From the NCBI RefSeq assembly GCF_000701465.1, contig NZ_JNIY01000004.1:1-64000 (forward strand): 64,000 nt of DNA. Direction: 5' to 3'. Of the stretch, positions 4,323 to 51,231 are shown in pieces; position 1 is the first letter of the stretch, and every line of letters begins with the position of its first letter. Both the position numbers and the translations under genes were made by a program. The notes under the pieces were generated by a model. It did no database searches and had not been told where the DNA came from. It saw nothing but the letters and a program-made list of their open reading frames with translations. The stretch comes from Paraoerskovia marina DSM 21750 (lineage in GTDB: Bacteria > Actinomycetota > Actinomycetes > Actinomycetales > Cellulomonadaceae).

Positions 4323-4360
4323 GACGGGGCCCGCCCGGGCAGTGCCGGACGGGCCCCGTC
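4323..4360 (-). terminator. Intra-operon hairpin (attenuator) after the binding-protein gene
   Basis: An 11-bp perfect inverted repeat (4323-4333 with 4350-4360) surrounds a 16-nt loop that is itself partly complementary. It lies between the lipoprotein stop and the first permease. It may stabilise the upstream mRNA or stop part of the transcripts. Confidence 0.65.
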
Positions 4361-4367
4361 TACCGGG

Positions 4368-5666: not shown

Positions 5667-5750
5667 CGTGATCCCGTCGCCTTCGTTGCCGTGGGGATCG
5701 CACCGTGGTGCGACCGGACGCATCATCACGTCCGTGGTGGCTCGCTCCCC

Positions 5751-5779
5751 ATCAAAGGGCTCCGAATCCTTGGTGTCAA
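5751..5779 (-). promoter_or_regulatory. Promoter of the minus-strand sugar ABC operon
   Basis: On the minus strand a perfect -35 TTGACA (5774-5779) is followed after 17 bp by TTTGAT (5751-5756). It lies about 85 bp before the binding-protein ATG. The -35 box is inside an imperfect palindrome, cttggtgtcaag (5769-5780), a plausible operator position for the divergent ROK regulator. Confidence 0.6.
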
Positions 5780-5853
5780 GAAGTGAAGACAAGAATCACC
5801 CAACCGTGACCATCGCGTTATAACGTCAACTCAAGGAGTGCTCGCTCTGCCCG

Positions 5854-7053
5854 ATGTATCCTGACTCGGTGCGGACGACGCGGGAGACGCCCGGATCGCA
5901 GACTTCACTGCGTGAGGCCAACAGGGCCAGGATCGTCGCTGCCGTGCAACAGCACGGGTCGCTGACCCAGGTCGAGCTCTCGGGGATCACGGGGCTCTCG
6001 CCCGCGACGATCTCGAACATCGTCAAGGAGCTCACCGGCACCGGGGTGCTGAGCACGGCGCCGTCGACGCGCTCCGGGCGACGCGCCCAGCTCGTCACCC
6101 TGGCACGCAGCCTCGGCCTCGTGGCCGGCGTCGACTTCGGTTCTCGTACCATGCGGGTCGTCCTCGCCGACGCGTCGATGCGCCTGCTCGCGTCCGAGCA
6201 GATGCCGCTCGCGCCCGACCACCGCGCCGACATGGGCATGCAGCGCGCCTCGATGCTGATCCAGGAGATGACCGACTCCGTCGAGGCGGGCGTGGGAGAG
6301 CTCCTCGCGGTCGGGATCGGCGTCCCCGCGCCCGTCGACACGGCCCGGGGCGTCGTCTCGAGCGCCGGTCTGCTGCGCGGCTGGGACGGTGCCGACGTCG
6401 CCGCGAACCTCTCCGCGCAGCTGGGCGTGCCGGTCAGCGTCGACAACGACGCCAACCTCGGAGCACTCGCGGAGGCACGGTACGGCGCCGCCGTCGGGTA
6501 CGACCCGGTCGTCTACGTCCGTGCGTCGCACGGGATCGGCGGCGGGATAGTCCTCGGGGGGCGCCTGCTCCACGGCCGGGCCGGGTCCGCGGGCGAGATC
6601 GGCCACGTCACCATCGACGAGAACGGGCCGATCTGCCGGTGCGGGAACCGCGGGTGCCTCGAGACGTTCGTCGGGTCGCCTGTCCTGCTCGGCATGCTCG
6701 CCGCCAGCCACGGGCACCTGACGCTCGGCGACGTCGTCACCCGCGCCCAGGACGGGGACGCCGGCTGCCGTCGGGTCCTGTCCGACGCCGGGGCCCACCT
6801 GGGCGCGGCCGTCGCCAACCTCTGCAACCTCGTCGACCCCGAGGTGGTGGTCGTCGGTGGCCAGCTCGCCGCGGCGGGCGACATCATCCTCGCTCCGCTC
6901 CGCTCCGCCGTCGAGCAGCGGACCGTCCCCAGCGCGGAGGGCCCGCCCGTCGTCGTCCCCTCCGAGTTCGGCGAGTGGGCCGAGGCGCGTGGTGCGCTCG
7001 CCGTGGCGCTCGACCGGGCGCGGTCCGACGGCGCGCTGGGGGTGAGCGCATGA
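5854..7053 (+). CDS. ROK-family transcriptional regulator (XylR/NagC-like)
   Basis: The 399-residue protein has an N-terminal winged helix (about residues 18-75, QVELSGITGLSPATISNIVKEL) joined to a ROK sugar-kinase-like domain. The zinc motif CRCGNRGCLE is intact at about residues 256-265, followed by the second lobe (DPEVVVVGGQLA). ROK repressors sense a sugar or sugar phosphate. The gene overlaps the next gene, a xylose-type binding protein, by 4 bp and is divergent from another sugar ABC operon. It therefore probably controls both. The start codon is assigned from the family N-terminus; upstream ATGs were not seen. Confidence 0.9.
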   Translation: MYPDSVRTTRETPGSQTSLREANRARIVAAVQQHGSLTQVELSGITGLSPATISNIVKELTGTGVLSTAPSTRSGRRAQLVTLARSLGLVAGVDFGSRTMRVVLADASMRLLASEQMPLAPDHRADMGMQRASMLIQEMTDSVEAGVGELLAVGIGVPAPVDTARGVVSSAGLLRGWDGADVAANLSAQLGVPVSVDNDANLGALAEARYGAAVGYDPVVYVRASHGIGGGIVLGGRLLHGRAGSAGEIGHVTIDENGPICRCGNRGCLETFVGSPVLLGMLAASHGHLTLGDVVTRAQDGDAGCRRVLSDAGAHLGAAVANLCNLVDPEVVVVGGQLAAAGDIILAPLRSAVEQRTVPSAEGPPVVVPSEFGEWAEARGALAVALDRARSDGALGVSA

Positions 7054-8129
7054 GGCGGGCACTCGCCGGGGTCGCCCTGGCCGCCGTCGCCGCGCTGGGC
7101 CTCGGCGCCTGCACCGGGCAGACGGACGCCGAGCAGGAGCGTGCCGGGACGATCGCGCTGCTCCTGCCCGAGGCACAGGCTGCGCGGTACGAGACCAGCG
7201 ACCGGCCGACGTTCGAGGAGGTTGCGCGTCAACGCTGTCCCGACTGCCAGCTGCTGTACGCGAATGCGGAGCAGGACGCGGCGGCGCAGCAGGAGCAGGC
7301 CGAGGCGATGATCGCGCGCGGCACCGACGTGCTCGTCATCGACGCGGTGGACACGACCGCGGCCACGAGCATCGTCGCCGCGGCCGAGCGCAACGACGTC
7401 GCGGTCATCGCCTACGACCGCTTCATCGACGACCCCCGCGTCGACTACTACGTCTCGTTCGACTCCCGGATGATCGGCTACGAGCAGGGCAAGGCGATCG
7501 TGAGGGCGCTCGCCGACGCCGAGCCGGGGGAGGAGCCGCCCGGCGCACTCCTCGTCCACGGCTCGCCCACCGACCCGAACTCGGCGGCGCTGAAGGCCGG
7601 CGTCCATCAGGCGCTCGACGGCGCGGACGTGACGATCCTGGCCGAGTACGACACCCCGGACTGGAGCCCCACCCGGGCGCAGGAGTGGGTCACTGCCCAG
7701 CTCACGCAGTACGCCGGTCGGGTGGACGCCGTCTACGCGGCCAACGACGGAATCGCCGGTGGGTCGATCGCCGCGATGAAGGCCGCGGGCTATGAGCCGA
7801 TCCCGCCGGTGACCGGTCAGGACGCCGAGCTCTCCGCGGTCCAGCGGATCGTCGACGGCGACCAGCTCATGACCGTGGCGAAGGCCACCGACCAGCAGGC
7901 CCGGACCGCCGCCGAGGTCGCCGTCCGGGTGCTGCGCGGCGAGGACCCGGTCGCCTCCACCACGATCGGCGGCGTCCCGAGCTTCCTGCTCGCCCCCACC
8001 AGTATCTGGGCGGACGACGTCGAGCGCGTGGTGGTCCAGGGCCGGATCCACGCGGTCGACGAGATCTGCACCGACCCGTATGCCGACGCGTGCGCGCGGC
8101 TCGGCCTGACCGATGAAGGAGCGTCGTGA
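7050..8129 (+). CDS. Xylose-type ABC transporter substrate-binding lipoprotein
   Basis: The 359-residue protein starts with a lipoprotein signal peptide (lipobox LGAC near residues 17-20), then a periplasmic-binding-protein domain of the ribose/xylose group. Features include ALLLPEAQAARYETSDRPTF, the VIDAVDTTAA strand and the XylF-like C-terminal GGVPSFLLAPTSI. Members bind D-xylose or other monosaccharides outside the cell. The ATG overlaps the ROK stop (ATGA). ATPase and permease follow with 4-bp overlaps, forming one operon. D-xylose is the best guess by similarity, not proven. Confidence 0.88.
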   Translation: MRRALAGVALAAVAALGLGACTGQTDAEQERAGTIALLLPEAQAARYETSDRPTFEEVARQRCPDCQLLYANAEQDAAAQQEQAEAMIARGTDVLVIDAVDTTAATSIVAAAERNDVAVIAYDRFIDDPRVDYYVSFDSRMIGYEQGKAIVRALADAEPGEEPPGALLVHGSPTDPNSAALKAGVHQALDGADVTILAEYDTPDWSPTRAQEWVTAQLTQYAGRVDAVYAANDGIAGGSIAAMKAAGYEPIPPVTGQDAELSAVQRIVDGDQLMTVAKATDQQARTAAEVAVRVLRGEDPVASTTIGGVPSFLLAPTSIWADDVERVVVQGRIHAVDEICTDPYADACARLGLTDEGAS

Positions 8130-8878
8130 CCGCAGCGATCACCCTCGCCGGAGTCTCCAAGAGCTTCGGTGCAGCCCAGGCCCTCGTCGACGTCGATCTC
8201 GAGGTCAACACGCACGAGGTCCTCGCGGTCGTCGGCGACAACGGGGCCGGCAAGTCCACGCTCGCCGGCCTGCTGTCCGGCGTGCACACCCCCGACCGCG
8301 GGCAGGTGCGGATCGACGGCGAGCCCGTGCACCTCACCTCCCCGGCCGCGGCACGGCGCGAAGGGATCGCCGCGGTGTTCCAGGAGCTCGCGCTCTGCGA
8401 CAACCTCGACGTGGTCGAGAACCTCTTCCTCGGGCACGAGGCCGCGGCCGGGATCTTCCTCGACGAGGTGTCGATGGAACGTCAGGCGTGGGAGCTCCTC
8501 GACCAGCTCGCCGCGCGCGTCCCCAGCGTCCGCGTCCCGGTCGCGGCGCTCTCCGGCGGTCAGCGCCGCACGATCGCGATCGCGCGGGCGCTCCTCGGCG
8601 ACCCGCGGGTGATCGTGCTCGACGAACCGACCACTGCCCTGGGCATCCGCCAGACGGCCCAGGTGCTCACCCTGGTGGAACGTCTGCGCGAGCGAGGGCA
8701 CGCCGTCGTGCTGATCAGCCACTCGATCACCGACGTGCAGGCCGTCGCGGACCGGATCGCCGTGCTGCGGCTGGGCCACCTGATCGGGGAGTTCGACGCC
8801 GAGACGACCACCACTGAAGACCTGCTCGGGGCGATCACCGGTGCGGTCGCCCCGCGTGCGGGCGGGAGGGCATCATGA
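8126..8878 (+). CDS. Sugar ABC transporter ATPase, single nucleotide-binding domain
   Basis: The 250-residue ATPase has Walker A GDNGAGKST (about 37-45), Q-loop VFQELALCDN, signature LSGGQRRTIAIARA (about 141-154), Walker B VIVLDEPT and switch His in LISHS. It is half-size. XylG, RbsA and MglA of enterobacteria carry two fused ATPase domains in about 500 residues. A single domain must act as a homodimer, as seen in many actinobacterial members. It starts with GTG overlapping the binding-protein stop and energises the adjacent permease. Confidence 0.92.
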   Translation: MTAAITLAGVSKSFGAAQALVDVDLEVNTHEVLAVVGDNGAGKSTLAGLLSGVHTPDRGQVRIDGEPVHLTSPAAARREGIAAVFQELALCDNLDVVENLFLGHEAAAGIFLDEVSMERQAWELLDQLAARVPSVRVPVAALSGGQRRTIAIARALLGDPRVIVLDEPTTALGIRQTAQVLTLVERLRERGHAVVLISHSITDVQAVADRIAVLRLGHLIGEFDAETTTTEDLLGAITGAVAPRAGGRAS

Positions 8879-10086
8879 CGACGGCACGCACAGCCCCGCG
8901 CACGGACGGCGGGCGGATCTCGTCGGCGTGGCAGACGTGGACCGACGGCGACCACCGGCTCGCGCCGATCGCCGGGGCGCTGGTCGTGATCTGGGTGGCG
9001 TTCGGCATCGCCAACCCCACGTTCTGGACGCCCGAGAACCTGGTCAACCTCTCGTTGCAGTCCGTCTCGACCGGTGTCATCGCGCTCGGGATCGTCATCG
9101 TGCTGCTGGCCGGCCAGATCGACCTCTCGGTGGGGTCCGTGAGCGGTCTCGCGGCCGCGATCGTGGCGGTCGGGGCGGTCGCGGGCGACTGGCCCGTCGC
9201 GCTCGGGGTCGTCGTCGCGCTCGTCGCGGGCGCGCTGATCGGGCTCCTCTATGGTGTGCTCGTCGCCCGGTTCGGCCTCCCGGGGTTCGTGATCACGCTC
9301 GCCGGTCTGCTCGTCGTCGCAGGTGTCCAGTGGCGGGTGCTCGGCGCCGACGGCTCGGTCAACCTGCCGTTCGACTCGTGGCTCGTGAAGTTCAACCAGG
9401 CGTGGTTCGTGCCCGACGGCGTGGCCTGGGTCGGGGCGGCGGTCGTCGTCGCCGGGGTCGCCACGATCGGGATCGTCGAACGACGACGGCGCGTGCTCGC
9501 CGAGCTCCCGGCACCCACCGTGCTCGGCGTCCTGATCAGGCCGGCGGTCCTTGCCGTCCTCCTGGCCGTGGTCGTCGGCTATCTGGGCCAGGCGCGAGGC
9601 ATCGGGTACAGCGTCGTGCTCTTCGTCGTCCTGGTCGCCGTCACCGACGTCCTGCTGCGCCGGACCCGGTGGGGGCGGCACGTGCGCGCGGTCGGGGGCG
9701 ACCACCGTGCGTCTCTGCTCGCCGGCGTACCGGTCCGGCGCACCCTCGTCTCCGCGTTCGTCGCCTGCTCGACGCTGGCCGCCCTCGGGGGAGTGCTGGC
9801 GGCCGGACGCCTCGCCGCGGCGAACCAGGGCACCGGGGGAGGAGGTCTCTTCCTGACCGCGATCGCGGCCGCCGTCATCGGGGGGACCAGTCTCTTCGGC
9901 GGGCGTGGCAGTGCCTGGTCGGCCCTGCTCGGGGTGCTCGTCATCCAGTCGATCGCGAACGGGCTCACCCTGCTCGACCTCGACGCCGCGACCCGGAACA
10001 TCGTGACCGGGCTCGTCCTCGCCTTCGCCGTCTCGATCGACACGCTCCTGCGACAGCGTCAGCAGCGGTCGGTCACCCGTGTGTGA
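8875..10086 (+). CDS. Xylose/ribose-type ABC transporter permease
   Basis: The 403-residue integral membrane protein belongs to the BPD_transp_2 (RbsC/XylH) family. It has about ten helices, the characteristic LLAGQIDLSVGSVSGLAAAI at about residues 77-96, and GGTSLFGGRGSAWSALLGVL near residue 340. The length fits XylH (about 390-400) better than RbsC (about 320). It overlaps the ATPase gene by 4 bp and completes the binding-protein/ATPase/permease set. The next gene, an AGE-family epimerase, begins 32 bp later and may act on the imported sugar. Confidence 0.92.
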   Translation: MTTARTAPRTDGGRISSAWQTWTDGDHRLAPIAGALVVIWVAFGIANPTFWTPENLVNLSLQSVSTGVIALGIVIVLLAGQIDLSVGSVSGLAAAIVAVGAVAGDWPVALGVVVALVAGALIGLLYGVLVARFGLPGFVITLAGLLVVAGVQWRVLGADGSVNLPFDSWLVKFNQAWFVPDGVAWVGAAVVVAGVATIGIVERRRRVLAELPAPTVLGVLIRPAVLAVLLAVVVGYLGQARGIGYSVVLFVVLVAVTDVLLRRTRWGRHVRAVGGDHRASLLAGVPVRRTLVSAFVACSTLAALGGVLAAGRLAAANQGTGGGGLFLTAIAAAVIGGTSLFGGRGSAWSALLGVLVIQSIANGLTLLDLDAATRNIVTGLVLAFAVSIDTLLRQRQQRSVTRV

Positions 10087-10118
10087 CCCGGGTCGCAGTC
10101 CGGGGTAGCGTTCTGGAT

Positions 10119-11279
10119 GTGGCAGACCACGCAGGGGTGAGTCCCTCGGCAGACGCACAGCTCGAGCCCGTCAGCGATCCGGGCCGTGCGGCGGTGCGGC
10201 GCGCGGCCAGGCTGCGAGCGCTCCTGGACGGGTGTGCCGCCGTCGACGTCGAGCGCATCGGGGTGAGGACGGACGTCGCAGCGCGACTCGCGCACGTCCA
10301 CTCCCTCGGGCACCTCGTCGGTGCCGAGAACAGCGCGGAGCGCGCCGACGCCGCCCTGGCCAGCCTCCGGACGATGCTCGCCGACCCGGACCACGGCGGC
10401 TGGTTCGCCGGTCGGGGCCCAGGCGACGGCGTCGACGGGGCCAAGGACGCCGGGACCCACACTGCCGTCGTCCTCGCGGCCGCCACGGCGGCGCTCGCGG
10501 ACAGGCCGGGGGCGCGCGTGATGCTCGACGAGGCGCTGGTGGTGCTCGGCCAGCGGTTCTGGGACCCCGAGGCGTCGATGCTGCGCACGGAGTGGGACCG
10601 TGCCTGGAACGCACCCGGGCCGTACCGCGGACTCGCCGCCAACATGTACGGGGTGGAGGCGATGCTGGCCGCCTACGACGCCACCGCCGACCTGCAGTGG
10701 CTCGAGAGCTCCGGTGCCGTCGTCGACCGTGTCGTCGGTTGGGCCTCGGCCAACCGCTGGCGGCTGCCCGAGCACTTCACCCCCGACTGGATCCCCGACC
10801 GCGACTACAACGTCCACGACCCGCGGGACGCCGAGCGGCCCTACGGATCGGTCCCTGGGCACGGGTTCGTCTGGGCGCGTCTGCTGCTCTCGCTCGAGGC
10901 GGCGCACGGGTCGACCGGGCGACGGACCGACGCCGCGATCTCCCTGTTCGAACGGGCGCTCGCCGACGCGTGGACGGGCGACGGGTTCGTCGCGACCGTC
11001 GACTGGCAGGGCAACGCGCTCGACACCCGAACGCCGGTCGCGGCGCGCTGTGCCGCGATCACCACGGCCTACCAGCTGGCCCGGGTGACCGGGGACGAAC
11101 GGTACGCCCGCCGGGCGGAGGACTGGTGGCCCGCCGACCCGGACCCGTGGTGCAGCGGGCCGCAGGACGTTCACGTCGCCGTCCAGGCGCTGCTCGCGCC
11201 AGACCTCCCGGTGGGTGCGTCGTTCGGCGGGGCCGTGCGCCAGGGGTTGCGGGCGACGGGACCGACGGCGACGCGCTAG
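10119..11279 (+). CDS. AGE-family sugar epimerase/isomerase
   Basis: The 386-residue protein has the alpha/alpha-barrel of N-acylglucosamine 2-epimerases and mannose/cellobiose isomerases. Family hallmarks include the HVHSLGHLVGAEN start, DPDHGGWF at about residue 88, GPYRGLAANMYGVEAMLA, and PEHFTPDW with PGHGFVWARLLLSLE, which supply active-site histidines and glutamates. Such enzymes interconvert free sugars in the cytoplasm, for example mannose/fructose or cellobiose epimerisation. It lies at the end of the xylose-type transporter operon. A GTG at 10119 is the likely start; GTG 10137 is possible. Its stop overlaps the stop of the convergent mod gene. Confidence 0.8.
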   Translation: MADHAGVSPSADAQLEPVSDPGRAAVRRAARLRALLDGCAAVDVERIGVRTDVAARLAHVHSLGHLVGAENSAERADAALASLRTMLADPDHGGWFAGRGPGDGVDGAKDAGTHTAVVLAAATAALADRPGARVMLDEALVVLGQRFWDPEASMLRTEWDRAWNAPGPYRGLAANMYGVEAMLAAYDATADLQWLESSGAVVDRVVGWASANRWRLPEHFTPDWIPDRDYNVHDPRDAERPYGSVPGHGFVWARLLLSLEAAHGSTGRRTDAAISLFERALADAWTGDGFVATVDWQGNALDTRTPVAARCAAITTAYQLARVTGDERYARRAEDWWPADPDPWCSGPQDVHVAVQALLAPDLPVGASFGGAVRQGLRATGPTATR

Positions 11280-36971: not shown

Positions 36972-37864
36972 GCACCACGACCCGACCCGGCCCGGTGACC
37001 ACCGGGCCCGCCCACCGGGCCGAGACCAGCTCCCGGCGCCGTCGGCCCCGCCACGACGCCGGTCCGCTCGTGTACGGGATCGCTCTCGTCGTCGTGGCCG
37101 TCACGCTCGGGCCCGTCGTCTACGGGGTGCTCGGGGGCTTCCGGACCAACGCGCAGCTCGCGGAGGCACCTGCCGCGATGCCGGACCCCTGGGTGCTCAC
37201 GAACTACGTCGGTGTGCTCTCGAACCCGGACTTCTGGCGCTATACGCTCAACTCGACGGCCATCGCGGTGATCACGACCGCGCTCGTCGTGCTCTTCGGC
37301 GTCATGGCGGCCTACCCGCTCGCGCGCTACCGGTTCCGCGGTCGCGAGAAGCTGTTCATGGTCTTCGTGACCGGCCTGCTGTTCCCCGCGACCGTTGCCA
37401 TCATCCCGCTCTTCATCCTCGTGTCGCGAGACCTCGGCCTCGGCAACACGTGGTGGGGTGTCGCACTGCCCCAGGCGGCGTTCGGGCTGCCGATGACGGT
37501 GGTAATCCTGCGCCCGTTCCTCATGGCGCTGCCCGACGAGATCGAGGAGGCTGCACTCCTTGACGGTGCGACGCGCGTCGGCTTCTTCTGGCGAATCCTG
37601 CTGCCGCTCTCCGGCCCGGGCATGGTGACGGTCGGGGTGCTCGCGTTCGTCGGGTCCTGGAACTCGTACCTGCTCCCGCTGCTGCTGCTCCAGGACGAGA
37701 CCAAGACGCTCCCGCTCGGCGTCGCCGACTTCTCGAGCGAACACTCGGCCGACACGGCAGGTGTCTTCGCATTCACGACCCTGGCGATGATCCCGGCCCT
37801 GATCTTCTTCCTCGCCATGCAGAAGCGGATCGTCAACGGGCTCCAGGGAGCGGTCAAGGGATGA
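36968..37864 (+). CDS. Carbohydrate ABC transporter permease, MalG type
   Basis: The 298-residue protein has six helices and the loop EEAALLDGATRVGFFWRILLP at about residues 195-215. The C-terminus MQKRIVNGLQGAVKG is the usual MalG-like ending. It overlaps the MalF-type gene by 4 bp. The GH3 gene follows within 54 bp, or overlaps if translated from an alternative upstream ATG. Confidence 0.92.
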   Translation: MSTTTRPGPVTTGPAHRAETSSRRRRPRHDAGPLVYGIALVVVAVTLGPVVYGVLGGFRTNAQLAEAPAAMPDPWVLTNYVGVLSNPDFWRYTLNSTAIAVITTALVVLFGVMAAYPLARYRFRGREKLFMVFVTGLLFPATVAIIPLFILVSRDLGLGNTWWGVALPQAAFGLPMTVVILRPFLMALPDEIEEAALLDGATRVGFFWRILLPLSGPGMVTVGVLAFVGSWNSYLLPLLLLQDETKTLPLGVADFSSEHSADTAGVFAFTTLAMIPALIFFLAMQKRIVNGLQGAVKG

Positions 37865-37917
37865 GCTATCAGACTGTAGAGGTGCACCGTGCACCCGACC
37901 CACGAAGGAGTACTCCG

Positions 37918-40209
37918 ATGACGGACCGGACGGCCTCGGCCGCCGCATCTGACCGTGTCCGGGCGATGGTCGCCCGGATGACGCTCGAGCAGAAGCTCGC
38001 CCAGATCGTCGGGTACTGGCTCGACCAGGGTGGTGAGGTCGTGGCCCCGATGCAGGGGGAGATGTCCGGCGTGCCCGAGGACCTTGCCGACATCACCCGG
38101 CACGGCATCGGGCACTTCACCCGCGTGTACGGGACCCGCCCGGTCGACGCGGCCGAACGCGCCCGGTGGCTCTGGACGGAGCAGCGGAGGCTGGTGGCGG
38201 AGACCGGGATCCCGGCGCTCGTGCACGAGGAGTGCCTGACCGGGCTGGCCGCGTGGCGTGCCGCCACGTTCCCGACCCCGCTCGCCTGGGGCGCCTCGTT
38301 CGACCCGGGGCTGGTCGAGGAGATGGGGTCGGCGATCGGCGGATCCATGCGGGAGCTCGGCATCCACCAGGGGCTCGCCCCGGTGCTGGACGTCGTCCGG
38401 GACCCCCGCTGGGGTCGCGTCGACGAGTGCATCGCCGAGGACCCGTACGTCGTGGGCACGCTCGGCACCGCCTACGTCCGCGGACTGCAGGGCGCCGGCG
38501 TCCACGCCACCCTCAAGCACTTTGCGGGGTACTCGGCCTCCCGCGCGGGGCGCAACCACGCCCCGGTGTCCGCGGGCCCCCGGGAGATGGCCGACGTGCT
38601 GCTGCCGCCGTTCGAGATGGCCGTGCTCGACGGCGGGGTGCGGTCGGTGATGCAGGCGTACGTCGACGTCGACGGCGTCCCGATGGCGTCCAGCGAGGAG
38701 TACCTCACCGGCATCTTGCGCGACCGCTGGGGGTTCGACGGGACCGTCGTCGCCGACTACTTCGGGGTCGCCTTCCTCCACGTCATGCACAAGGTCGCCG
38801 CCGATCTCGGCGAGGCCGCGGGCCTCGCGCTCGCCGCCGGCGTCGACATCGAGCTCCCCACGGGCGACGCGTACCTGGAACCGCTGGCGGCGCGTGTCCG
38901 GGACGGGCTCGTGGACGAGGACCTGGTCGACCGTGCCGTGCTCCGGGCCCTGCGTCAGAAGGAGGAGCTCGGCCTGCTCGACGAGACGTTCGACGACGAG
39001 CCCCCGGCAGTCGTCGACCTCGACCCGCCGGGCCACCGGGCCATCGCGCGCCGGCTCGCCGAGGAGTCCGTGGTGCTGCTCGCGAACGACGGCGTCCTGC
39101 CCCTTGTCGCACCGGGGCGTCCGGCGCCCGCTCGTGTCGCCGTCGTCGGGCCCAACGCGGACCGCGCCGAGGCGCTCATGGGGTGCTACTCGTTCGCCAA
39201 CCACGTCCTGGCCCACCACCCCGGCACCGAGCTCGGGTTCGAGATCCCGACCGTCGCCGAGGCGTTGCGCTCCGAGCTCCCAGACGCCGAGATCACCGTG
39301 TCCGCGGGCTGCGACGTGGACGGGGACGACCGCTCGGGGTTCGCGGCCGCGGTCGAGGACGCCGCCGCGGCCGACGTCGCGGTGCTCGTCCTCGGGGACC
39401 AGGCGGGCCTCTTCGGGCGCGGCACCGTCGGCGAGGGCAACGATGCCGAGAGCCTGGAGCTCCCTGGCGTGCAGGCCGACCTCGTCGAGGCCGTCCGCGC
39501 GACCGGTACCCCGACCGTCGTCGTGCTCCTGACCGGACGACCGTACGCCGTCGGCCCCATGCTGGAGGACGGGGCGGTGCTGCAGGCCTTCTTCCCCGGG
39601 GAGGAGGGCGGGACGGCGCTCGCGGGCATCATCACCGGGCGGGTCTGCCCGTCGGGCCGCCTGCCGGTCTCCCTCCCGCGCTCTGGCGGCGCCCAGCCGT
39701 ACTCGTACCTGCACCCGACGCTCGGCGGCCCCAGCGAGGTCACGAGCACGGACTCGACCCCCGCCCGGCCGTTCGGCTTCGGGCTCTCGTACACCAGGTT
39801 CGAGCGCACCGGTCTTGTCGCCGACGCCCGGGTGGCGAGCGGTGGGACGTTCGCGGCCTCGGTGCGCGTGACCAACACCGGCGACCGCGCCGGGACCGAC
39901 GTCGTCCAGCTCTACGCGCACGACGTCGTGGGCTCGATCCCGCGCCCCGTCGCGCTGCTCCTCGGGTACGCGCGCGTCGACCTCGCCGCGGGGGAGTCCG
40001 CCGTCGTGCACCTCGAGGTCCCCACGACGAGGTTGGCCTTCACGGATCGCTCGATGGTGCGGGTGGTCGAGCCGGGAGAGGTCGAGCTCTGGGTCGGCCC
40101 CGACTGCGCGACCCGGGAGTCCGAGGCCTCGATCGTCGTCGACAGCCCCGCCCACGCGGTCACGGTCGACGACCCGCGGGTCGTGGGAGTCAGGGTGGAG
40201 CGCGCCTGA
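37918..40209 (+). CDS. Glycoside hydrolase family 3 (beta-glucosidase or beta-xylosidase)
   Basis: The 763-residue enzyme has the GH3 N-terminal barrel with GLAPVLDVVRDPRWGRVDE and KHFAGYSASRAGRN, and the catalytic nucleophile Asp280 in GTVVADYFGV. The C-terminal alpha/beta domain (about 375-610) contains FFPGEEGGTALAGIITG, followed by a fibronectin type III-like domain. There is no signal peptide, so it cleaves imported oligosaccharides in the cytoplasm. The ATG at 37918 is preferred because gaaggag lies 8 nt upstream; an ATG at 37861 overlapping the permease stop is possible. Specificity for glucose or xylose cannot be decided by eye. Confidence 0.92.
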   Translation: MTDRTASAAASDRVRAMVARMTLEQKLAQIVGYWLDQGGEVVAPMQGEMSGVPEDLADITRHGIGHFTRVYGTRPVDAAERARWLWTEQRRLVAETGIPALVHEECLTGLAAWRAATFPTPLAWGASFDPGLVEEMGSAIGGSMRELGIHQGLAPVLDVVRDPRWGRVDECIAEDPYVVGTLGTAYVRGLQGAGVHATLKHFAGYSASRAGRNHAPVSAGPREMADVLLPPFEMAVLDGGVRSVMQAYVDVDGVPMASSEEYLTGILRDRWGFDGTVVADYFGVAFLHVMHKVAADLGEAAGLALAAGVDIELPTGDAYLEPLAARVRDGLVDEDLVDRAVLRALRQKEELGLLDETFDDEPPAVVDLDPPGHRAIARRLAEESVVLLANDGVLPLVAPGRPAPARVAVVGPNADRAEALMGCYSFANHVLAHHPGTELGFEIPTVAEALRSELPDAEITVSAGCDVDGDDRSGFAAAVEDAAAADVAVLVLGDQAGLFGRGTVGEGNDAESLELPGVQADLVEAVRATGTPTVVVLLTGRPYAVGPMLEDGAVLQAFFPGEEGGTALAGIITGRVCPSGRLPVSLPRSGGAQPYSYLHPTLGGPSEVTSTDSTPARPFGFGLSYTRFERTGLVADARVASGGTFAASVRVTNTGDRAGTDVVQLYAHDVVGSIPRPVALLLGYARVDLAAGESAVVHLEVPTTRLAFTDRSMVRVVEPGEVELWVGPDCATRESEASIVVDSPAHAVTVDDPRVVGVRVERA

Positions 40210-41359: not shown

Positions 41360-42148
41360 TCAGCAGGCCCCGAGGTCCTGCCAGACTCCCCATTGGCTCG
41401 GAGCCGGGGTGTCGCCGAGCGTCCACCATTTGGCTCGCCAGAGGTGCCCGTCGTGGCTGACCTGGTTGCCACCGGTGTAGACGGTCGAGCCGGACCAGGC
41501 CGCTGCGGAGCAGTCCGGCGGGGTCGTCGTCGGGTCGGTCGTCGGGTCGGTCGTCGGATCCGTGGTCGGGTCCGGCGTCGGGTCGGTCGGCCCGGTTCCG
41601 TTCACGTTGAGGTCGACGCAGTTGTAGAACGCCATCGCGGTGTTCGAGACGTTCCAGCGGGCGAGGACCGTGTGGTTGCCGCTCGGCAGGCCCGTCAGCG
41701 TGTGCGAGATGTTGCTCGGCGGCTGCTGGCCGTTCTGGTTGAACGTCTTGAACAGCTTGCCGTCGACGAAGTACTCCCACGTGCTCGTGTTGTGCGCGGC
41801 GGTGAGCTTCCACTTGAACGTCACCGACGACCCCGTGGTCGTGCGGGGCCACGGCTTCGAGCTGTCGTCCAGGATGTCGAACCCGCTGCCGCCGGAGCAC
41901 TGCATCGACCCCTTCGGGGCCTCGACGGACTGGGGCTCGTACTTGATGGCGCCGCAGTCGAACGACGTCGCGCCGTTGGCGCAGTTGTCCTGGCGGCTGG
42001 GCGGCGAGGTGATCCAGCCGTGCGCCTCGGCGGACGGCGCGACGAACGCAGGGGCCACGACGGCGCCCGCGAAGGCCAGAGCGAGGACGACGACGGCGGC
42101 ACGGACGCGGCCGATCGGCGTGGAACGGACTGTTGATCTCAAGGACAT
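41360..42148 (-). CDS. AA10 lytic polysaccharide monooxygenase with CBM5/12 module
   Basis: The 262-residue secreted protein has a signal peptide ending APSAEA, so the mature chain begins at His43 (HGWITSPPSRQDNC). This His and His119 (TAAHNTSTW) form the copper-binding histidine brace. The AA10 core runs to about residue 190. A short Thr-Asp-Pro linker and a C-terminal aromatic module (AWSGSTVYTGGNQVSHDGHLWRAKWW) of the CBM5/12 chitin/cellulose-binding type follow. It oxidatively cleaves crystalline chitin or cellulose. A close paralogue lies just upstream. Confidence 0.94.
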   Translation of the reverse strand: MSLRSTVRSTPIGRVRAAVVVLALAFAGAVVAPAFVAPSAEAHGWITSPPSRQDNCANGATSFDCGAIKYEPQSVEAPKGSMQCSGGSGFDILDDSSKPWPRTTTGSSVTFKWKLTAAHNTSTWEYFVDGKLFKTFNQNGQQPPSNISHTLTGLPSGNHTVLARWNVSNTAMAFYNCVDLNVNGTGPTDPTPDPTTDPTTDPTTDPTTTPPDCSAAAWSGSTVYTGGNQVSHDGHLWRAKWWTLGDTPAPSQWGVWQDLGAC

Positions 42149-42357
42149 GAAGGGCGCTCCTCGGGTCGACGGGATCTCGGACCTCCTCGTCCGAGACGTG
42201 GGCGGCGTCGGTGCCGCAACCGTTGTCGACGCTAGGGAGGCCGGGTGCGCCCGGCAATCGTGGAGGTTCCGTACGGGGACACCCGCACGGGCCGCCCCGC
42301 AGGGTGCGTACACAGGCCTTTGCGCAGGTGAGCGTGCAGTTCGGGGCGCGGCCTCGT

Positions 42358-42369
42358 CGAATCGATTCG
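42358..42369. promoter_or_regulatory. Perfect 12-bp palindrome, candidate operator
   Basis: cgaatcgattcg is a perfect palindrome about 210 bp before the ATG of the downstream LPMO. It has the central CG of LacI-family sites but is shorter than most operators. Role as a regulator site is a guess. Confidence 0.25.
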
Positions 42370-42447
42370 GGTGGGGCGTAGGGCAATCTGCGGGAACCAC
42401 GTAGGCGCTCGCGGCCGCCGAGAGGCGACAGGGGCAGAGACACGACA

Positions 42448-42478
42448 GCGGGGTTGCCGACCGTGTCGACAACCCCGC
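42448..42478 (-). terminator. Hairpin after the second LPMO gene
   Basis: A 9-bp perfect stem (gcggggttg, 42448-42456, with 42470-42478) and a 13-nt loop lie 56 bp after the stop of the upstream LPMO on the minus strand. Confidence 0.6.
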
Positions 42479-42534
42479 CGCCGGCGCGACGTGAGGGGGA
42501 GTTCACGTCATGCCGGGTCTATCGGTGGATCGGC

Positions 42535-43425
42535 TCAGCAGGCGCCGAGGTCCCGCCACACACCCCAGTCGCTCGCGACCGGGGCCGAGTTGGTGGTCCA
42601 CCACTTGGCCTGCCAGAAGTGGCCGTCGTGGATCACGACGTCACCGCCGACGTAGACCGCCGAGTCGGACCACGGCTCACCGGAGCACTGGCCCGGGTCG
42701 GTCGTGGGATCCGTCGTGGGATCCGTCGTCGGGTCGGTGGTGGGGTCCGTGGTCGGGTCCGTGGTGGGGTCGGTCGTGGGATCCGTGGTGGGGTCCGTGG
42801 TCGGGTCCGTGGTGGGGTCCGTCGTGGGGTCCGTGGTCGGGTCGGTCGTCGGGTCCGTGCCCGGGTCCGTCCCGTCCGCGGTCACGGTGATGTCGACGCA
42901 GTTGTAGAACGCCATCGGCGTGTCGGCGATGTTCCAGCGCGCGAAGATCGTGTGGTCGCCCTCGGGCAGACCGGTCAGCGTGTGGCTGATGTCCTTCGGC
43001 GGCTGCGCGCCACCCTGGCTGCGGGTGTCGAAGAGCTCTCCGTCGACGAAGTACTCCCACGTGCTCGTCGAGTGGTTCGCGGTGAGCTTCCACTGGAACG
43101 TCACGTCGCGGCCGGTGACGGTGCTCGGCCACGCGAGCGACTCGTCGTCGAGGATGTCGTATCCGCTGTCCCCGGAGCACTTCATCGAGCCCTTGACGGC
43201 CTCGACGGACTGGGGCTCGTACTTGATGCCACCGCAGTCGAACGGCGTCGCGCCGGTCGAGCAGTTGTCCTGGCGGCTCGGTGGCGAGGTGATCCAGCCG
43301 TGCGCCTCGGCAGACGGTGCGAGCGCCACCGGGGCGACGATCGCGCCTCCGATCGCAAGCGCCAGCGTCACCACCGCGGTGCGTACGCGCCGTGCGGCGC
43401 TACTGGTCATGGTCGTGCTCGTCAT
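42535..43425 (-). CDS. AA10 lytic polysaccharide monooxygenase with long Thr-Asp-Pro linker and CBM5/12
   Basis: The 296-residue secreted LPMO has mature N-terminal His42 (PSAEA|HGWITSPPSRQDNC) and the second brace His in LTANHSTSTW. It is strongly similar to the neighbouring LPMO over the AA10 core and the C-terminal binding module (VYVGGDVVIHDGHFWQAKWW). The linker is about 14 TDPT-type units instead of about 5. ATG 43425 with aggggag-like aggga upstream is preferred over GTG 43431. The pair looks like a tandem duplication with separate promoters. Confidence 0.94.
   Translation of the reverse strand: MTSTTMTSSAARRVRTAVVTLALAIGGAIVAPVALAPSAEAHGWITSPPSRQDNCSTGATPFDCGGIKYEPQSVEAVKGSMKCSGDSGYDILDDESLAWPSTVTGRDVTFQWKLTANHSTSTWEYFVDGELFDTRSQGGAQPPKDISHTLTGLPEGDHTIFARWNIADTPMAFYNCVDITVTADGTDPGTDPTTDPTTDPTTDPTTDPTTDPTTDPTTDPTTDPTTDPTTDPTTDPTTDPTTDPGQCSGEPWSDSAVYVGGDVVIHDGHFWQAKWWTTNSAPVASDWGVWRDLGAC
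42695..42866. repeat. 12-bp coding tandem repeat (LPMO linker)
   Basis: About 14 units of a 12-bp repeat (gggtccgtggtc and variants) encode Thr-Asp-Pro-Thr units on the minus strand. Synonymous variation among units is limited, so the tract is likely expanded recently and prone to slippage. Unit changes keep the frame. Confidence 0.9.
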
Positions 43426-43568
43426 CAACACTCCCTGGTCGGGTGAAGTGGCGGCAGGGAGGAGTCCCTCAGGGGCCGACGTCGGCGCCGGCGCTCACCA
43501 CCCGGGGAACGCTATGGATGGCTGCAGGTGGGCACAATTGTGCGAAATGCGTACGCAGGAGTGCGTAG

Positions 43569-46128: not shown

Positions 46129-47373
46129 TCAGGTCGCGGCGCTGAGCCGCTCGGTCGCCTCGAGGAACGCGATGTCGCGGGCCACGCGCAGGCCGCTGAT
46201 CAGCGCCCCCTGCAGCACCGACTCCTCGCCGAGCGAGGCCGTCACGAGGTTCGGCCGCATCGGGGTGATCTGCTCCATGCGTGCGGTCAGGGCGGGCAGC
46301 AGTGCGTCGAGGTTCTGCCCGACGCCGCCGCCCACGACGATCATCTCGGGGTCCAGGAGCGCGGCGACGCCCGTGACGACGTCGGCGAGCTGGCGTGCCT
46401 CGGTCTCGACCGCCGCGACCGCGCGCGGGTCCCCGGCGGCCGCGAGCCGGAACACCTCGGCGGCGGTGACGTCGTCGTCGAGCCCCTCGTCGACGGCGTA
46501 CCGCACCACCGAGTCGGCGGCCGACCTCCACTCGAGCACGCCACGCCTGCCCTCGGCGGCGTGGTCGTCGATGCGCTCGCCCACGGGCATGAAGGCGATC
46601 TCTCCGGCGGCCCCGGTCGCACCCTGGTAGGTCTCGCCGTCGACGATGATGCCGAGCCCGATCCCGGTGCCGACGTGGAGGTAGGCCATGTGGCGGGTCC
46701 CGACGCCGGCGCCGGTCGCGTGCTCGGCGACGGCCGCCAGGTTCGCGTCGTTCTCGATGGCGAACGACCCGCCGATCCGTGCGGCGAGCGCGCCCGCGAG
46801 CCCCGGCCGCTGCCACGCCGGGAGCTGGGCCGCGAACATCAGCGCCTGCTCCTCGGCCTGGAAGACGCCGGGCGCGGCGATCAGCGTGTGGGTGGACGGG
46901 CCGGTGATCCCCGCCTGGGCCCGTACCTGCTCGGCGGCTGCGCCGACGGCGTCGACGAGGTCGTCCGGGGCGGCGGTGTTGGGGATGTCGAGGCGCGCGA
47001 GCCGGTCACCCGCCAGGTCGGCCACGGCGAGCCGGATCCATCGGCGGCCGATGTCGACGGCGGTCACCGAGCCGGCGGTGGGGTCCGGCTCGTACACGAC
47101 GGCCGGTCGGCCGGTCGTCGTCTCGGGCCGGCCGGCGGCGCGGACGAGGCCGCCACGCTCGAGGTCGCTGAGGGCGGCGAGCACCGTGGGCTGCGACAGG
47201 CCGGCGCGTCGGGCGAGCTGCGGCCTGCTGAGAGGGCTGGCCTCGTACAGGTGCCCGAGGAGCACCTGGCGGTTGACGGTGCGCATTCCGGCGGGCTCGA
47301 CGGCGGCGGCGAGCGCTGCGGTCGGTCGGGCGCGCAGGCGGTCCGTCGGGCCGCCCGGGGGAGTCGCGGTCAT
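46129..47373 (-). CDS. ROK-family transcriptional regulator lacking the zinc motif
   Basis: The 414-residue protein has an N-terminal winged helix (PLSRPQLARRAGLSQPTVLAALSDL, about residues 46-70) and a ROK domain (SVTAVDIGRRWIRLAVADLA, HVGTGIGLGIIVDG, DPEMIVVGGGVG). The usual zinc motif CxCGxxGCxE is replaced by a region without cysteines (EGRRGVLEWRSA). It is divergent from a ROK kinase gene with a 46-bp gap containing a palindrome, and should repress the kinase-YhfX-Php operon and itself. Confidence 0.9.
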   Translation of the reverse strand: MTATPPGGPTDRLRARPTAALAAAVEPAGMRTVNRQVLLGHLYEASPLSRPQLARRAGLSQPTVLAALSDLERGGLVRAAGRPETTTGRPAVVYEPDPTAGSVTAVDIGRRWIRLAVADLAGDRLARLDIPNTAAPDDLVDAVGAAAEQVRAQAGITGPSTHTLIAAPGVFQAEEQALMFAAQLPAWQRPGLAGALAARIGGSFAIENDANLAAVAEHATGAGVGTRHMAYLHVGTGIGLGIIVDGETYQGATGAAGEIAFMPVGERIDDHAAEGRRGVLEWRSAADSVVRYAVDEGLDDDVTAAEVFRLAAAGDPRAVAAVETEARQLADVVTGVAALLDPEMIVVGGGVGQNLDALLPALTARMEQITPMRPNLVTASLGEESVLQGALISGLRVARDIAFLEATERLSAAT

Positions 47374-47383
47374 TGCTTCCTCA

Positions 47384-47413
47384 TTGACAGGTAGGAGACT
47401 TTATTAAAGACTC
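47384..47413 (+). promoter_or_regulatory. Overlapping promoter and palindromic operator of the ROK kinase cassette
   Basis: A perfect TTGACA (47384-47389) is followed after 17 bp by the weak -10 aagact (47407-47412). The start codon ATG at 47420 is 7 nt later, so the mRNA is probably leaderless. A 19-bp palindrome (47395-47413) with 8 of 9 matched positions (gagactttaTtaaagactc) covers the spacer and -10. It is the likely site of the divergent ROK regulator. Confidence 0.65.
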
Positions 47414-47419
47414 TTCATC

Positions 47420-48337
47420 ATGACAGGTCTCGCGCACGGCGTGATAGCCATCGACATCGGTGGGACGAAGATCGACGTCGCCCTGGCAGGCCCGGACGGT
47501 GCCGTGCACGACCGCCAGCGCCTGCCCACCCGCGCGGGCGACGGTCCCCGCCAGGCTATCGCCCGCATCGGGTCGACGGCGCGGGATCTCGGCGCCGACG
47601 CGAGCCGGTTCGGCCTCACGGTCACGGGGGCAGCCGCCGTCAGCCCGGGGGTGGTGCACGACGGCGGCCTGCAGCTGGTGCCGACGATGCCCGGGTGGGA
47701 CGACTACCCCCTCGCGCAGGAGGTCGGCACCGAGCTCGGATTCTCGGACGTCCCTGTCTGGAACGACGTGCACGCCGCCGGCCTCGCCGAGGCACGGAGC
47801 GGGGCCCTCGTCGACGCCGACCCGGGGCTCTACGTGAACCTCGGCACCGGCGTCTCCGCCGCGATCGTCGTCGGTGGCACCGTCCTGCGCGGCGCGCACC
47901 GTGCCGCGGGCGAGATCGGGTACCTCACGCCGCACGAGTCCGCGCTGACGCCCGTCGGGACGGCGCCGCTCGAGGAGATCGTCGGGGGCGGGCTCCTCGG
48001 CCCGCGGATCGGGGCGCTCACCGGGCGTGCCTTCACGTCGGCCGACGTGCTCGCGAGCACCGACCCCGTCGTCCAGGGGCTCGTCCACCAGGCCGTCCTC
48101 ACCCTCGCCCGCGAGATCGCGAACATCGCGGTCACGCTGGACCCCGCCGTGGTCGCGATCGGCGGGGGGATGACCGCCGCGGCCGGCCTGATCCTGCCCG
48201 TCGTCGAGGCCGAGGTGCGCCGTCGCGTCCCGTTCCCGCCCGCCGTCGTCCTGGCGTCCTACCGCACCGACGCGGCGCTGCACGGGGCGGTCGCCCTGGC
48301 GCTCGGTGCCGTCGACCGTATCCCGGCCGCGTCGTAG
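47420..48337 (+). CDS. ROK-family sugar kinase
   Basis: The 305-residue protein is a stand-alone ROK kinase without HTH. The phosphate loop AIDIGGTKIDVAL (about residues 9-21), the catalytic Asp in VWNDVHAAGLAEA, LYVNLGTGVSAAIVVGG and AIGGGMTAA are in place. The cysteine zinc motif is missing (ESALTPVGTAPLEEI instead). It should phosphorylate a hexose, N-acetylhexosamine or related compound. It is the first gene of an operon with a YhfX-like enzyme and a Php-like protein. Confidence 0.88.
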   Translation: MTGLAHGVIAIDIGGTKIDVALAGPDGAVHDRQRLPTRAGDGPRQAIARIGSTARDLGADASRFGLTVTGAAAVSPGVVHDGGLQLVPTMPGWDDYPLAQEVGTELGFSDVPVWNDVHAAGLAEARSGALVDADPGLYVNLGTGVSAAIVVGGTVLRGAHRAAGEIGYLTPHESALTPVGTAPLEEIVGGGLLGPRIGALTGRAFTSADVLASTDPVVQGLVHQAVLTLAREIANIAVTLDPAVVAIGGGMTAAAGLILPVVEAEVRRRVPFPPAVVLASYRTDAALHGAVALALGAVDRIPAAS

Positions 48338-48369
48338 CGCCGGCACACCCACCGCTCAAAGGAGAGACC

Positions 48370-49566
48370 GTGTTCCTCGAGACCGTCCGGCGTCGCAACC
48401 CCGGCCTGATCGCCGCCGCCGTCGCCCTGCACCAGGCGGGCAAGATCCCCGCCGGGACGTACGTCTACGACCTCGACGCCGTCGGGCACAACGCCCGGAC
48501 GCTGGCGGCGGAGGCCGCGCGGCTGGGGTTGACGCCGTACGCGATGCTCAAGCAGGTCGGCCGCAACCCCGACCTCACCCGCACCGTCCGGGCCGCGGGG
48601 ATCGGCGCCTCGGTCGCGGTCGACACCGCCTGCGCACGGGCCACGACCTCCGCCGGGATGCCGCTCGGGCACGTCGGGCACCTCGTCCAGGTTCCCCGGC
48701 ACGAGGCGGCGGCCGTCGCGGCGATGCAGCCGGCCCAGTGGACCGTCTTCTCCCACGAGAAGGCGGCCGAGGCCGCACGCGCCGCACGGGAGATCGGCCG
48801 CGAGCAGGACCTCCTCGCACGCATCCACGCCGACGGCGACGAGTTCTACGCCGGCCACGAGGGAGGGTTCGCCGCCGACGACGTCCTCGCCGTCGCCGAC
48901 CGCGTCGACGCCCTCGACGGTGCCCGGCTGGCCGGTGTCACCACGTTCCCCGCCCTGCTCTTCGACGCCGAGGTCCGCACCGTCCGGCCCACGCGCAACG
49001 CCGCAACCCTGGCCAGGGCCGCCGCGCGACTGCGGGACTCCGGCCGCGACGTCGTCGTCAACGGGCCCGGGACGACGTCGACCCGCACCCTCGCGACACT
49101 GGCCGAGCTGGGCGTCACCCACGTCGAGCCCGGGCACGCGCTGACGGGGACCACGCCGTGGCACGCCGTCACCGACGGCGACGACGACCTGCCCGAGATC
49201 CCCGCGGCCGTGCACGTCAGCGAGGTCAGCCACCACCACGGCGGGCGCGCGTACTTCTTCGGCGGCGGCCTCTACGTCGACCCCGTGCTCGGGCGCAGCC
49301 CCGTCCACGGCCTCGTCGGGTCCGACCCGGACGGGCTGACCCGCGTGCGGGCAGAGCTCCCGCCGCGCGAGGCGATCGACTACTACGGTCAGCTCGACCG
49401 GGAGCGCGGCAGCGCGGCCGCGGGCGACACCGTGGTGCTCGGCTTCCGCGGGCAGGCGTTCGTCACCCGTGCCTGCACGGCCGGGGTCACCGGGGTCTCG
49501 ACGGGCGACCCGCAGGTCGCCGGCATCTGGGCGTCCGACGGCAGCGCGGTCGCGTGGCCGGCGTGA
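48370..49566 (+). CDS. YhfX-like PLP-dependent enzyme (alanine racemase-type barrel)
   Basis: The 398-residue protein resembles E. coli YhfX and other fold-type III PLP enzymes. The likely PLP lysine is Lys61 in YAMLKQVGRNPDL. The barrel continues with ARIHADGDEFYAGHEGG, VNGPGTTSTRTL and GVTHVEPGHALTGTTPW, which have the expected phosphate- and substrate-binding pattern. Family activity is not established; racemase, epimerase or lyase chemistry on an amino acid or amino sugar derivative is possible. GTG 48370 has aaaggagag just before it. Confidence 0.82.
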   Translation: MFLETVRRRNPGLIAAAVALHQAGKIPAGTYVYDLDAVGHNARTLAAEAARLGLTPYAMLKQVGRNPDLTRTVRAAGIGASVAVDTACARATTSAGMPLGHVGHLVQVPRHEAAAVAAMQPAQWTVFSHEKAAEAARAAREIGREQDLLARIHADGDEFYAGHEGGFAADDVLAVADRVDALDGARLAGVTTFPALLFDAEVRTVRPTRNAATLARAAARLRDSGRDVVVNGPGTTSTRTLATLAELGVTHVEPGHALTGTTPWHAVTDGDDDLPEIPAAVHVSEVSHHHGGRAYFFGGGLYVDPVLGRSPVHGLVGSDPDGLTRVRAELPPREAIDYYGQLDRERGSAAAGDTVVLGFRGQAFVTRACTAGVTGVSTGDPQVAGIWASDGSAVAWPA

Positions 49567-50588
49567 GGACCGCCCAGACCGTCCTCGGCCCGGTCCCGAC
49601 GGCCGAGCTCGGGCGCGTCCTCGTCCACGAGCACCTGCTCGCCCTGACCCCCGGGCCGTGGCTCGCCGGGGCCCGCGGGGACGACGACGCCGCGCACGCC
49701 GCCGACCAGGTCGAGCGCGCGGTCGCAGCCCTCGCCGGGGTGCGGGAGGACGGGTTCGGGACGGTCGTCGACCTCAGCCCCTACGGCGTCGTCGGACGCG
49801 ACGAGGAGGGGAAGAACGTCGTATGGCTGCAGGAGATCTCCCGCCGCACCGGGCTGCACGTCGTGACGGGGACAGCGGTGTACCTCGAGGCGTTCAGCCC
49901 GCGGTGGGCCGTCGAGGCTAGTCTCGACGACATGACGGCGCGGTTCGTCCGCGATGCCACTGGGGGCGTCGCGGGCACTGGGGTCCGCGCCGGAGTGCTG
50001 GGGGAGCAGGCCACCGGTCTCGGCGTCGTCACGCCGCACGAGGAGAAGTGCCTGCGTGCGGCGGCACGCGCGCACGCCGAGACCGGACTTGCCCTGATGA
50101 CCCACACCACGCACGGGACGATGGCGCTCGAGCAGGTGCGGATCCTCCGCTCGGAGGGTGCCGACCTCGACCGTGTCGTCGTCGGGCACATGGACACCCA
50201 CCCGGAGACCGACTACGTCCGCCGCGTGCTCGACACCGGGGTGCGCGTCGCGTTCGACACGGTCGGCAAGCAGCTCTGGGACTTCCGCGTCGAGCCTCTG
50301 CCCGACCGGCTCCCCGACGGCCCGATGGTCAAGGACGCCTATCACCGGGCCGACGCCACCCGGGCCGCACGGATCGCCGCGCTCGTCGCGGACGGCTGGG
50401 CCGAGCGGATCGTCCTGGCCCACGACCTCACGGGCGAGGAGGTCTACCTCAACCCGCAGACGCACGGGCGCTGGGGCTACCGCTACCTCGCGGGGCCGTT
50501 CTGCGACCTGCTCCGCGCGCACGGCGTGACGGACGAGCAGATCGACCTGATGCTGCGCCGCACACCCCAGGAGATCCTCGGCGTCTGA
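49563..50588 (+). CDS. Phosphotriesterase-family hydrolase (Php-like)
   Basis: The 341-residue protein has a TIM-barrel amidohydrolase fold of the phosphotriesterase homology group. Metal ligands are His22 and His24 (VLVHEHLL), a bridging Glu (GVLGEQ), His in MTHTTHGT, His in VVGHMDTHP and Asp in AHDLTG. Related proteins act as lactonases or phospho-lactone hydrolases; E. coli Php sits beside YhfX with unknown role. GTG 49563 overlaps the yhfX-like stop, so both are translated together. Confidence 0.85.
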   Translation: MRTAQTVLGPVPTAELGRVLVHEHLLALTPGPWLAGARGDDDAAHAADQVERAVAALAGVREDGFGTVVDLSPYGVVGRDEEGKNVVWLQEISRRTGLHVVTGTAVYLEAFSPRWAVEASLDDMTARFVRDATGGVAGTGVRAGVLGEQATGLGVVTPHEEKCLRAAARAHAETGLALMTHTTHGTMALEQVRILRSEGADLDRVVVGHMDTHPETDYVRRVLDTGVRVAFDTVGKQLWDFRVEPLPDRLPDGPMVKDAYHRADATRAARIAALVADGWAERIVLAHDLTGEEVYLNPQTHGRWGYRYLAGPFCDLLRAHGVTDEQIDLMLRRTPQEILGV

Positions 50589-50643
50589 CGTGCTCCGGTG
50601 GGCAATCCCCCGCACCGGACGGGTGTTTTGGCACACTAGGGGT

Positions 50644-51231
50644 GTGAACGACGGCGAAGATACAGCCCATCACACGGACGCCGAGGCGGCACGGGCCGCA
50701 CTCGGGACGGTCGACCACGCCGTGCGCGACGCGACCGACGACGACGCGGCCGGCATCGGAGCCGTCTACGAGTACTACGTCCGTGAGTCCACCGCGACGT
50801 TCGAGACCGACCCTCCGGACGTCGAGTTCTGGCGCGAACGGATGCACTCCACACAGTCCGAGGGGTGGCCGTTCGTGGTCGCCGAGGGGCCGGACGGAAC
50901 CATCCTCGGCTGGGCCTACGTCGGCTGGTGGCGTCCCCGCCCCGCCTACCGGTACACGGTCGAGACGAGCATCTACCTGCTGCCCGGACAGGCGGGCAAG
51001 GGCCTCGGGAGCGCGCTCCTGCAGCGCGTCCTCGACGGGTCCCGGGCCGCCGGTGCCCGTGAGGCCGTGGCGATCATCAGCTCCGGGGCCTCGCCCGCCT
51101 CGCGCAAGCTCCACGAGAAGCTGGGGTTCCACGAGATCGGCCGGCTGACCGACGTCGGGTACAAGCACGGCCAGTGGCTCGACACCGCCATCATGCAGAT
51201 GCACCTCGGTCCGGGGCCCGAGGAGCCGTAG
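50644..51231 (+). CDS. GNAT N-acetyltransferase (phosphinothricin/MddA-like)
   Basis: The 195-residue enzyme has a GNAT domain (about residues 27-185) with DDDAAGIGAVYEYYVRESTATFE, WAYVGWWRPRPAYRYTVE and the acetyl-CoA loop LLPGQAGKGLGSALLQ, close to phosphinothricin/methionine-sulfone acetyltransferases. The N-terminal 25 residues are extra. GTG at 50644 fits the domain; an ATG is not seen. It follows the Php gene by 55 bp in the same direction and may belong to that operon. Confidence 0.85.
   Translation: MNDGEDTAHHTDAEAARAALGTVDHAVRDATDDDAAGIGAVYEYYVRESTATFETDPPDVEFWRERMHSTQSEGWPFVVAEGPDGTILGWAYVGWWRPRPAYRYTVETSIYLLPGQAGKGLGSALLQRVLDGSRAAGAREAVAIISSGASPASRKLHEKLGFHEIGRLTDVGYKHGQWLDTAIMQMHLGPGPEEP

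Follow-up and report, generated by a model that had tools for sequence, protein, structure and literature searches.

A locally repressed YhfX cassette in Paraoerskovia marina as a candidate reduced operon for amino-sugar salvage

Structures have been solved for YhfX and Php, two conserved orphan enzymes encoded in Escherichia coli by the yhf operon (yhfZ-yhfY-yhfX-yhfW-php-yhfU-yhfT-yhfS), whose role is not established. A search of the PMC literature found no functional account of YhfX, Php, or the cassette described here, nor a published assignment of the cassette to a known pathway, which agrees with its description in the original prediction as a set of unassigned function. Two other systems offer points of comparison: the Nag pathway, made up of N-acetylglucosamine kinase, NagA, and NagB or NagB-II, and PTER, an N-acetyltaurine amidohydrolase with a bridging glutamate, E169 (PMC11374699).

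We analyzed a window of 64,000 nucleotides from P. marina DSM 21750 (contig NZ_JNIY01000004.1, positions 1 to 64,000), in which the following features were located:

46129-47373, minus strand: ROK-family repressor, 414 aa, with an N-terminal winged HTH and a ROK domain (PF00480 and HTH_24 matches)
47384-47412, plus strand: promoter of the kinase operon, TTGACA (47384-47389), 17-nt spacer, AAGACT (47407-47412)
47399-47409, no strand assigned: palindrome CTTTATTAAAG, a putative ROK operator that overlaps both spacer and AAGACT hexamer
47420-48337, plus strand: ROK sugar kinase, type A, 305 aa (PF00480)
48370-49566, plus strand: YhfX PLP enzyme, 398 aa, GTG start (PF01168, Ala_racemase_N, and PF21279, YhfX-like_C)
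49563-50588, plus strand: PTE/Php-type metal hydrolase, GTG start (PF02126)
50644-51231, plus strand: GNAT gene, a flank gene outside the cassette

The five genes predicted earlier all turned out to be present, with profile matches, as did the 4-bp overlap of the YhfX and PTE genes (GTGA, 49563-49566, which holds the GTG start of PTE and the stop of YhfX), the 55-bp distance from the PTE end to the GNAT start, and the lack of a transporter gene in the cassette. The inclusion of the GNAT gene in the cassette was rejected, because two congeners (G024 and G060), neither of which has a YhfX match, carry it without the cassette, and in G024 the SulP and GNAT genes are adjacent, the gap at this empty site being about 50 bp. 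The cassette thus consists of four genes (46129-50588), and the GNAT and SulP genes are its flank. In a further congener, Sediminihabitans luteus, the set of four recurs with the same genes on either side, and its repressor is about 60% identical to that of the window. Chance does not account for the grouping, given that ROK repressor, kinase, YhfX, and PTE stay together in S. luteus and that, across phyla, YhfX is accompanied by a ROK regulator plus either hydrolase, PTE or M20.

Several features of the flanks were noted in passing. The GNAT gene product, from a genus-level flank gene, is nearest to arsinothricin/phosphinothricin N-acetyltransferases, below their cut-offs. In G060 an MFS-transporter-like stretch, seemingly broken by frameshifts, lies between SulP and GNAT at the site of the cassette (L175, 4449-5730). 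Elsewhere in the flank, 41360-43431 (minus strand) encodes a tandem pair of secreted LPMO_10 proteins that carry CBM_5_12 modules linked via Thr-Asp-Pro repeats, adjoined by a GH3 enzyme (37861-40209); both LPMOs likewise lie near SulP in S. luteus. The LPMO_10 and GH3 genes look like genes for attack on a polysaccharide, possibly chitin.

The start codon of the kinase lies 7 nt beyond the AAGACT hexamer. The layout TTGAC[A/G], 17 to 18 nt, AA[G/T]ACT, 7 nt, ATG was found upstream of the kinase in six loci, those of the window, S. luteus, three Pseudonocardia genomes, and one genome of the streptomycete family that holds G370 (matches in L014, L027, L028, L032, and L139; in L027 the ATG at 7 nt was taken from the sequence by eye, the automated start being a GTG two bases on). 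Since the start codon is this close to the hexamer in a layout common to all six, the kinase mRNA is probably leaderless. The palindrome CTTTATTAAAG occurs without mismatch in the window, L027, L028, and L139 and with a single one in L032; it was not found in S. luteus when two mismatches were allowed. An extended 17-base operator motif, searched with up to 3 mismatches, occurred a single time in the whole 2.95-Mb genome of the window, which suggests that the repressor works locally, on CTTTATTAAAG and on nothing else in the genome. An unlinked importer or deaminase under the control of the cassette operator was ruled out by the same result. A different near-perfect palindrome, TAATTAATAAACTTTATTAATTA, lies upstream of the regulator in the Lachnospiraceae YhfX cassettes L074 (4657-11699) and L099, which have a ROK-type regulator and a BadF-type kinase.

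To place the cassette among its relatives, GTDB contigs were scanned with a YhfX profile, which gave 527 relatives, and the best 80 of the 527 were kept; extra loci came from plasmids and other genomes, and a codon model served to call the cassette genes, which were then clustered. As only the best-matching relatives were sampled, distant contexts are under-represented. YhfX is rare, with matches in 5 of the 200 genomes from the window's bacterial family and in 5 of the 396 from its phylum, the window's own genome counted. Among 102 full-length YhfX loci, 83 had ABC importer genes nearby, 6 had an APC amino-acid permease only, 11 belonged to the yhf type of E. coli, and the remaining 2, those of the window and S. 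luteus, had no transporter; their cassettes also lack a deaminase. A typical set comprises a ROK regulator, an RbsB-type ABC importer or an amino-acid permease, YhfX, and an M20 or PTE/Php hydrolase. The common order is ROK regulator / SBP-PTE-kinase-permease-YhfX-ATPase-SIS in Actinobacteria and ROK regulator-M20-SBP-permease-YhfX-ATPase, sometimes with SIS, in Alphaproteobacteria. The original prediction had staked itself on co-occurrence of the ROK kinase, YhfX, and PTE genes in other genomes, and this was borne out. The importer's binding protein gave no lead to the ligand, since its nearest solved homologues are generic sugar binders.

The hydrolase was M20 in 56 of the 102 loci and PTE in 32, and no locus had both. 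This exclusivity clusters on the tree, with about two switches, and therefore partly reflects shared ancestry. PTE occurs in most actinobacterial relatives, M20 also in the actinobacterial loci L033, L034, L075, and L114, and the APC-type sister cassettes have neither.

We tentatively read the locus, at slightly short of an even chance, as a locally repressed catabolic operon, a reduced YhfX cassette for the salvage of a 2-amino sugar in amide linkage (N-acyl or N-aminoacyl), the full form being widespread. The ROK repressor would sit on CTTTATTAAAG, a conserved site, over the kinase promoter until a sugar-type ligand frees it; the amide would be opened by the Php-type hydrolase, as by its M20 substitute elsewhere; the ROK kinase would phosphorylate the amino sugar, either ahead of that opening or following it; and NagB, for which genes are present, would deaminate glucosamine-6-phosphate to fructose-6-phosphate. 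The deaminase would be the unlinked housekeeping NagB in the case of the window and an encoded SIS or NagB in that of the sister cassettes. In the weakest step of the scheme, the amino-acid moiety would be the substrate of YhfX, whose likeliest role is that of a racemase/epimerase or of a relative of the D-threonine aldolase family. This scheme retains the repressor-controlled salvage with a sugar-type kinase that had been predicted, and abandons the lactone or phosphoester step and the GNAT protein; it adds the importer of most relatives and the amino-sugar-phosphate deaminase of many, on which the prediction was silent.

The window kinase, a ROK domain without an HTH (PF00480, 110 bits), can be classed from its sequence as a ROK sugar kinase. 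Its DIGGTK motif and N115-D116 are invariant in aligned relatives; in the kinase alignment the catalytic N-D pair is kept, EIGY replaces the usual EIGH, and the Cys zinc motif is absent. It matched no named ROK equivalog (NanK, glucokinase, or others), the best curated NCBIfam score being 89.7 bits against a cut-off of 283, and the nearest curated model was NanK, far under its cut-off. The alignment separated two ROK kinase subtypes among the cassettes, and across the family the kinase, where present, is of the ROK, BadF, or PfkB type: L075 and L114 have a PpgK-like ROK kinase, the Lachnospiraceae cassettes have in its place a BadF kinase nearest to N-acetylglucosamine kinase (NagK), and L044, from an Acetobacteraceae genome, has a PfkB kinase. 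At this last locus (2733-10197), GATase1-like, weakly polysaccharide-deacetylase-like, and ribokinase-family kinase genes replace M20/PTE and ROK.

YhfX of the window belongs to its family over its full length, with PF01168 and PF21279 both above cut-off, and its Lys61, the expected PLP lysine, is invariant. The E. coli YhfX structure 4kbx was matched by sequence (phmmer E value, 3e-74) and by the window YhfX model (pLDDT, 93.7; Z, 52.9), followed by D-threonine aldolases and related D-hydroxyamino-acid enzymes over the full length (Z, 26 to 29) and, further down, by decarboxylases and alanine racemases (Z, about 25). A profile scan gave no match to PF14031, the C-terminal domain being PF21279, and the profile alignment of this domain with those of D-serine dehydratases was not significant; in GFRxQAFVTR, viewed by eye without a significant alignment, an H-x-C/D metal motif was not apparent. 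Judged from the model, the fold leaves the chemistry of YhfX unfixed. YhfX might be a PLP C2-epimerase (e.g., mannosamine to glucosamine) in an N-acetylhexosamine route, in which M20 or PTE would replace NagA as the N-deacetylase and the kinase and NagB would follow. The NagB/SIS proteins and amino-sugar-type kinases of the family fit such a route, as does NanK as the best, if far sub-threshold, match of the window kinase, and the C2-H of an amino aldose Schiff base should in principle be acidic. We nevertheless consider it unlikely: yhf operons pair YhfX with PTE without a kinase or NagB, sister cassettes carry amino-acid permeases, and we know of no fold-type III PLP enzyme that acts on amino sugars.

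A SIS protein is encoded in 31 of the 102 loci, and many cassettes end in one that is NagB-II-like. Of two curated models scanned, NagB-II was the better, at 175 to 179 bits, a score under its cut-off, versus 20 bits or none for fructoselysine-6-P deglycase; GlmS-type catalytic residues were kept in 7 of the 7 SIS proteins checked. Three SIS-free loci carry NagB type I, a glucosamine-6-phosphate deaminase, with scores above the curated cut-off in L046 and L052 and just below it in L075, where the order is M20-SBP-permease-YhfX-ATPase-kinase-NagB, with 4-bp overlaps from YhfX on. The cassette family thus includes a glucosamine-6-phosphate deaminase, which the window cassette does not. Taken together, the replacements of hydrolase, deaminase, and kinase suggest that glucosamine-6-phosphate is the form in which an amino sugar enters metabolism. 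They bear also on an frl-like salvage of Amadori compounds (fructosamines), with APC or ABC import, a kinase, a SIS deglycase that frees the amino acid, racemization of the amino acid by YhfX, and trimming of acyl or peptide groups by M20 or PTE. The permease-kinase-SIS layout of the APC-type sister cassettes speaks for this route, as do the frl genes adjoining yhf in E. coli; it is made quite improbable by the SIS proteins, which are far closer to NagB-II than to the deglycase, and by their exchange for NagB type I, which fits deamination and not deglycation.

The PTE protein has the features of the Php/PTE superfamily, its metal ligands H21, H23, E147, H180, H208, and D287 being invariant in 28 relatives. 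The metal bridge is a glutamate, as in E. coli Php, and takes the place of the bridging lysine on the fourth strand that marks PTE-like lactonases and organophosphate hydrolases and is found in the chains of both that we aligned. The PTE model (pLDDT, 89.7) had the PTER structure 9efa among its top matches (Z, 40.2), tied by fold with phosphotriesterases; the fold therefore leaves the subfamily undecided, and its assignment in this way was given up. The original prediction, in which Php opens a sugar-acid lactone or phosphoester, the kinase traps the product, and YhfX epimerizes or cleaves it, could draw on the lactonases of the PTE superfamily and a weak match to a phospho-furanose lactonase model (83 bits against a cut-off of 630), but is disfavored to the point of being very improbable by the glutamate bridge of the Php/PTER kind in place of the lactonase lysine, by the M20 amidohydrolases that stand in for PTE in sister cassettes, and by the glucosamine-6-phosphate deaminases encoded in cassettes. 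Amide opening in the salvage of an amino-sugar conjugate would be in keeping with a bridge common to Php and the amidohydrolase PTER.

Window YhfX groups with that of Pseudonocardia and L139, whose cassettes have kinase A, SIS, and an importer or permease, and the simplest reading of the window copy is a fuller cassette minus the importer and SIS. A sequence search found no dedicated SIS deaminase elsewhere in the window's genome, the sole SIS-like match, 28% identical within a 780-aa frame, being read as GlmS; a search for the importer SBP of the sister cassettes, run with no positive control, gave no match. The NagB gene of this genome, unlinked to the cassette and with a ROK gene and an ABC permease as neighbors, could provide the last step. 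Its surroundings (L180; G000:C3:1005614-1007253) are a housekeeping amino-sugar operon in which a sugar ABC permease, a ROK gene, and NagB have overlapping ends.

Against the salvage of an amide-linked amino sugar stand the lack of importer and deaminase in the window copy, the SIS scores below the NagB-II cut-off, the APC-type sisters without PTE or M20, and the E. coli-type yhf operons, which have YhfX and PTE and, in the clusters examined, no ROK kinase or SIS. The wider proposal of a new salvage pathway of Actinobacteria, Alphaproteobacteria, and Lachnospiraceae, in which amino-sugar conjugates are handled by YhfX as a fold-type III PLP enzyme and by PTEs of the Php type as amidohydrolases of amide-linked (aminoacyl) hexosamines, is rather doubtful. 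The window cassette is an abridged version of a gene set that is widespread but undescribed and that likely serves amino-sugar breakdown via glucosamine-6-phosphate, and the replacements (PTE/M20, SIS/NagB, ROK/BadF/PfkB) narrow the candidate pathway of YhfX and Php to a route forming that compound. They also single out three enzymes, an operator, and a class of substrates that can be assayed directly, for which the minimal window operon is a handy three-enzyme test set.

The locus resembles the E. coli yhf operon in having YhfX (39 to 40% identical) and Php (34%) as neighbors, and differs from it in adding a ROK repressor and a ROK kinase; with no YhfS, YhfT, YhfU, YhfW, or YhfZ gene near the window YhfX, it is not of the yhf-operon type. 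With the Nag pathway it shares a sugar kinase, an amidohydrolase step, and, in its relatives, a deaminase, whereas M20 or PTE stands in for NagA, YhfX is extra, and the deaminase is missing from the window copy. The PTE fold and the glutamate bridge are common to the window hydrolase and PTER, at about 29% identity and with a fold no closer than that of phosphotriesterases. The D-threonine aldolase/D-serine dehydratase family, finally, is the closest to YhfX in fold after 4kbx, yet YhfX has PF21279 and not PF14031.
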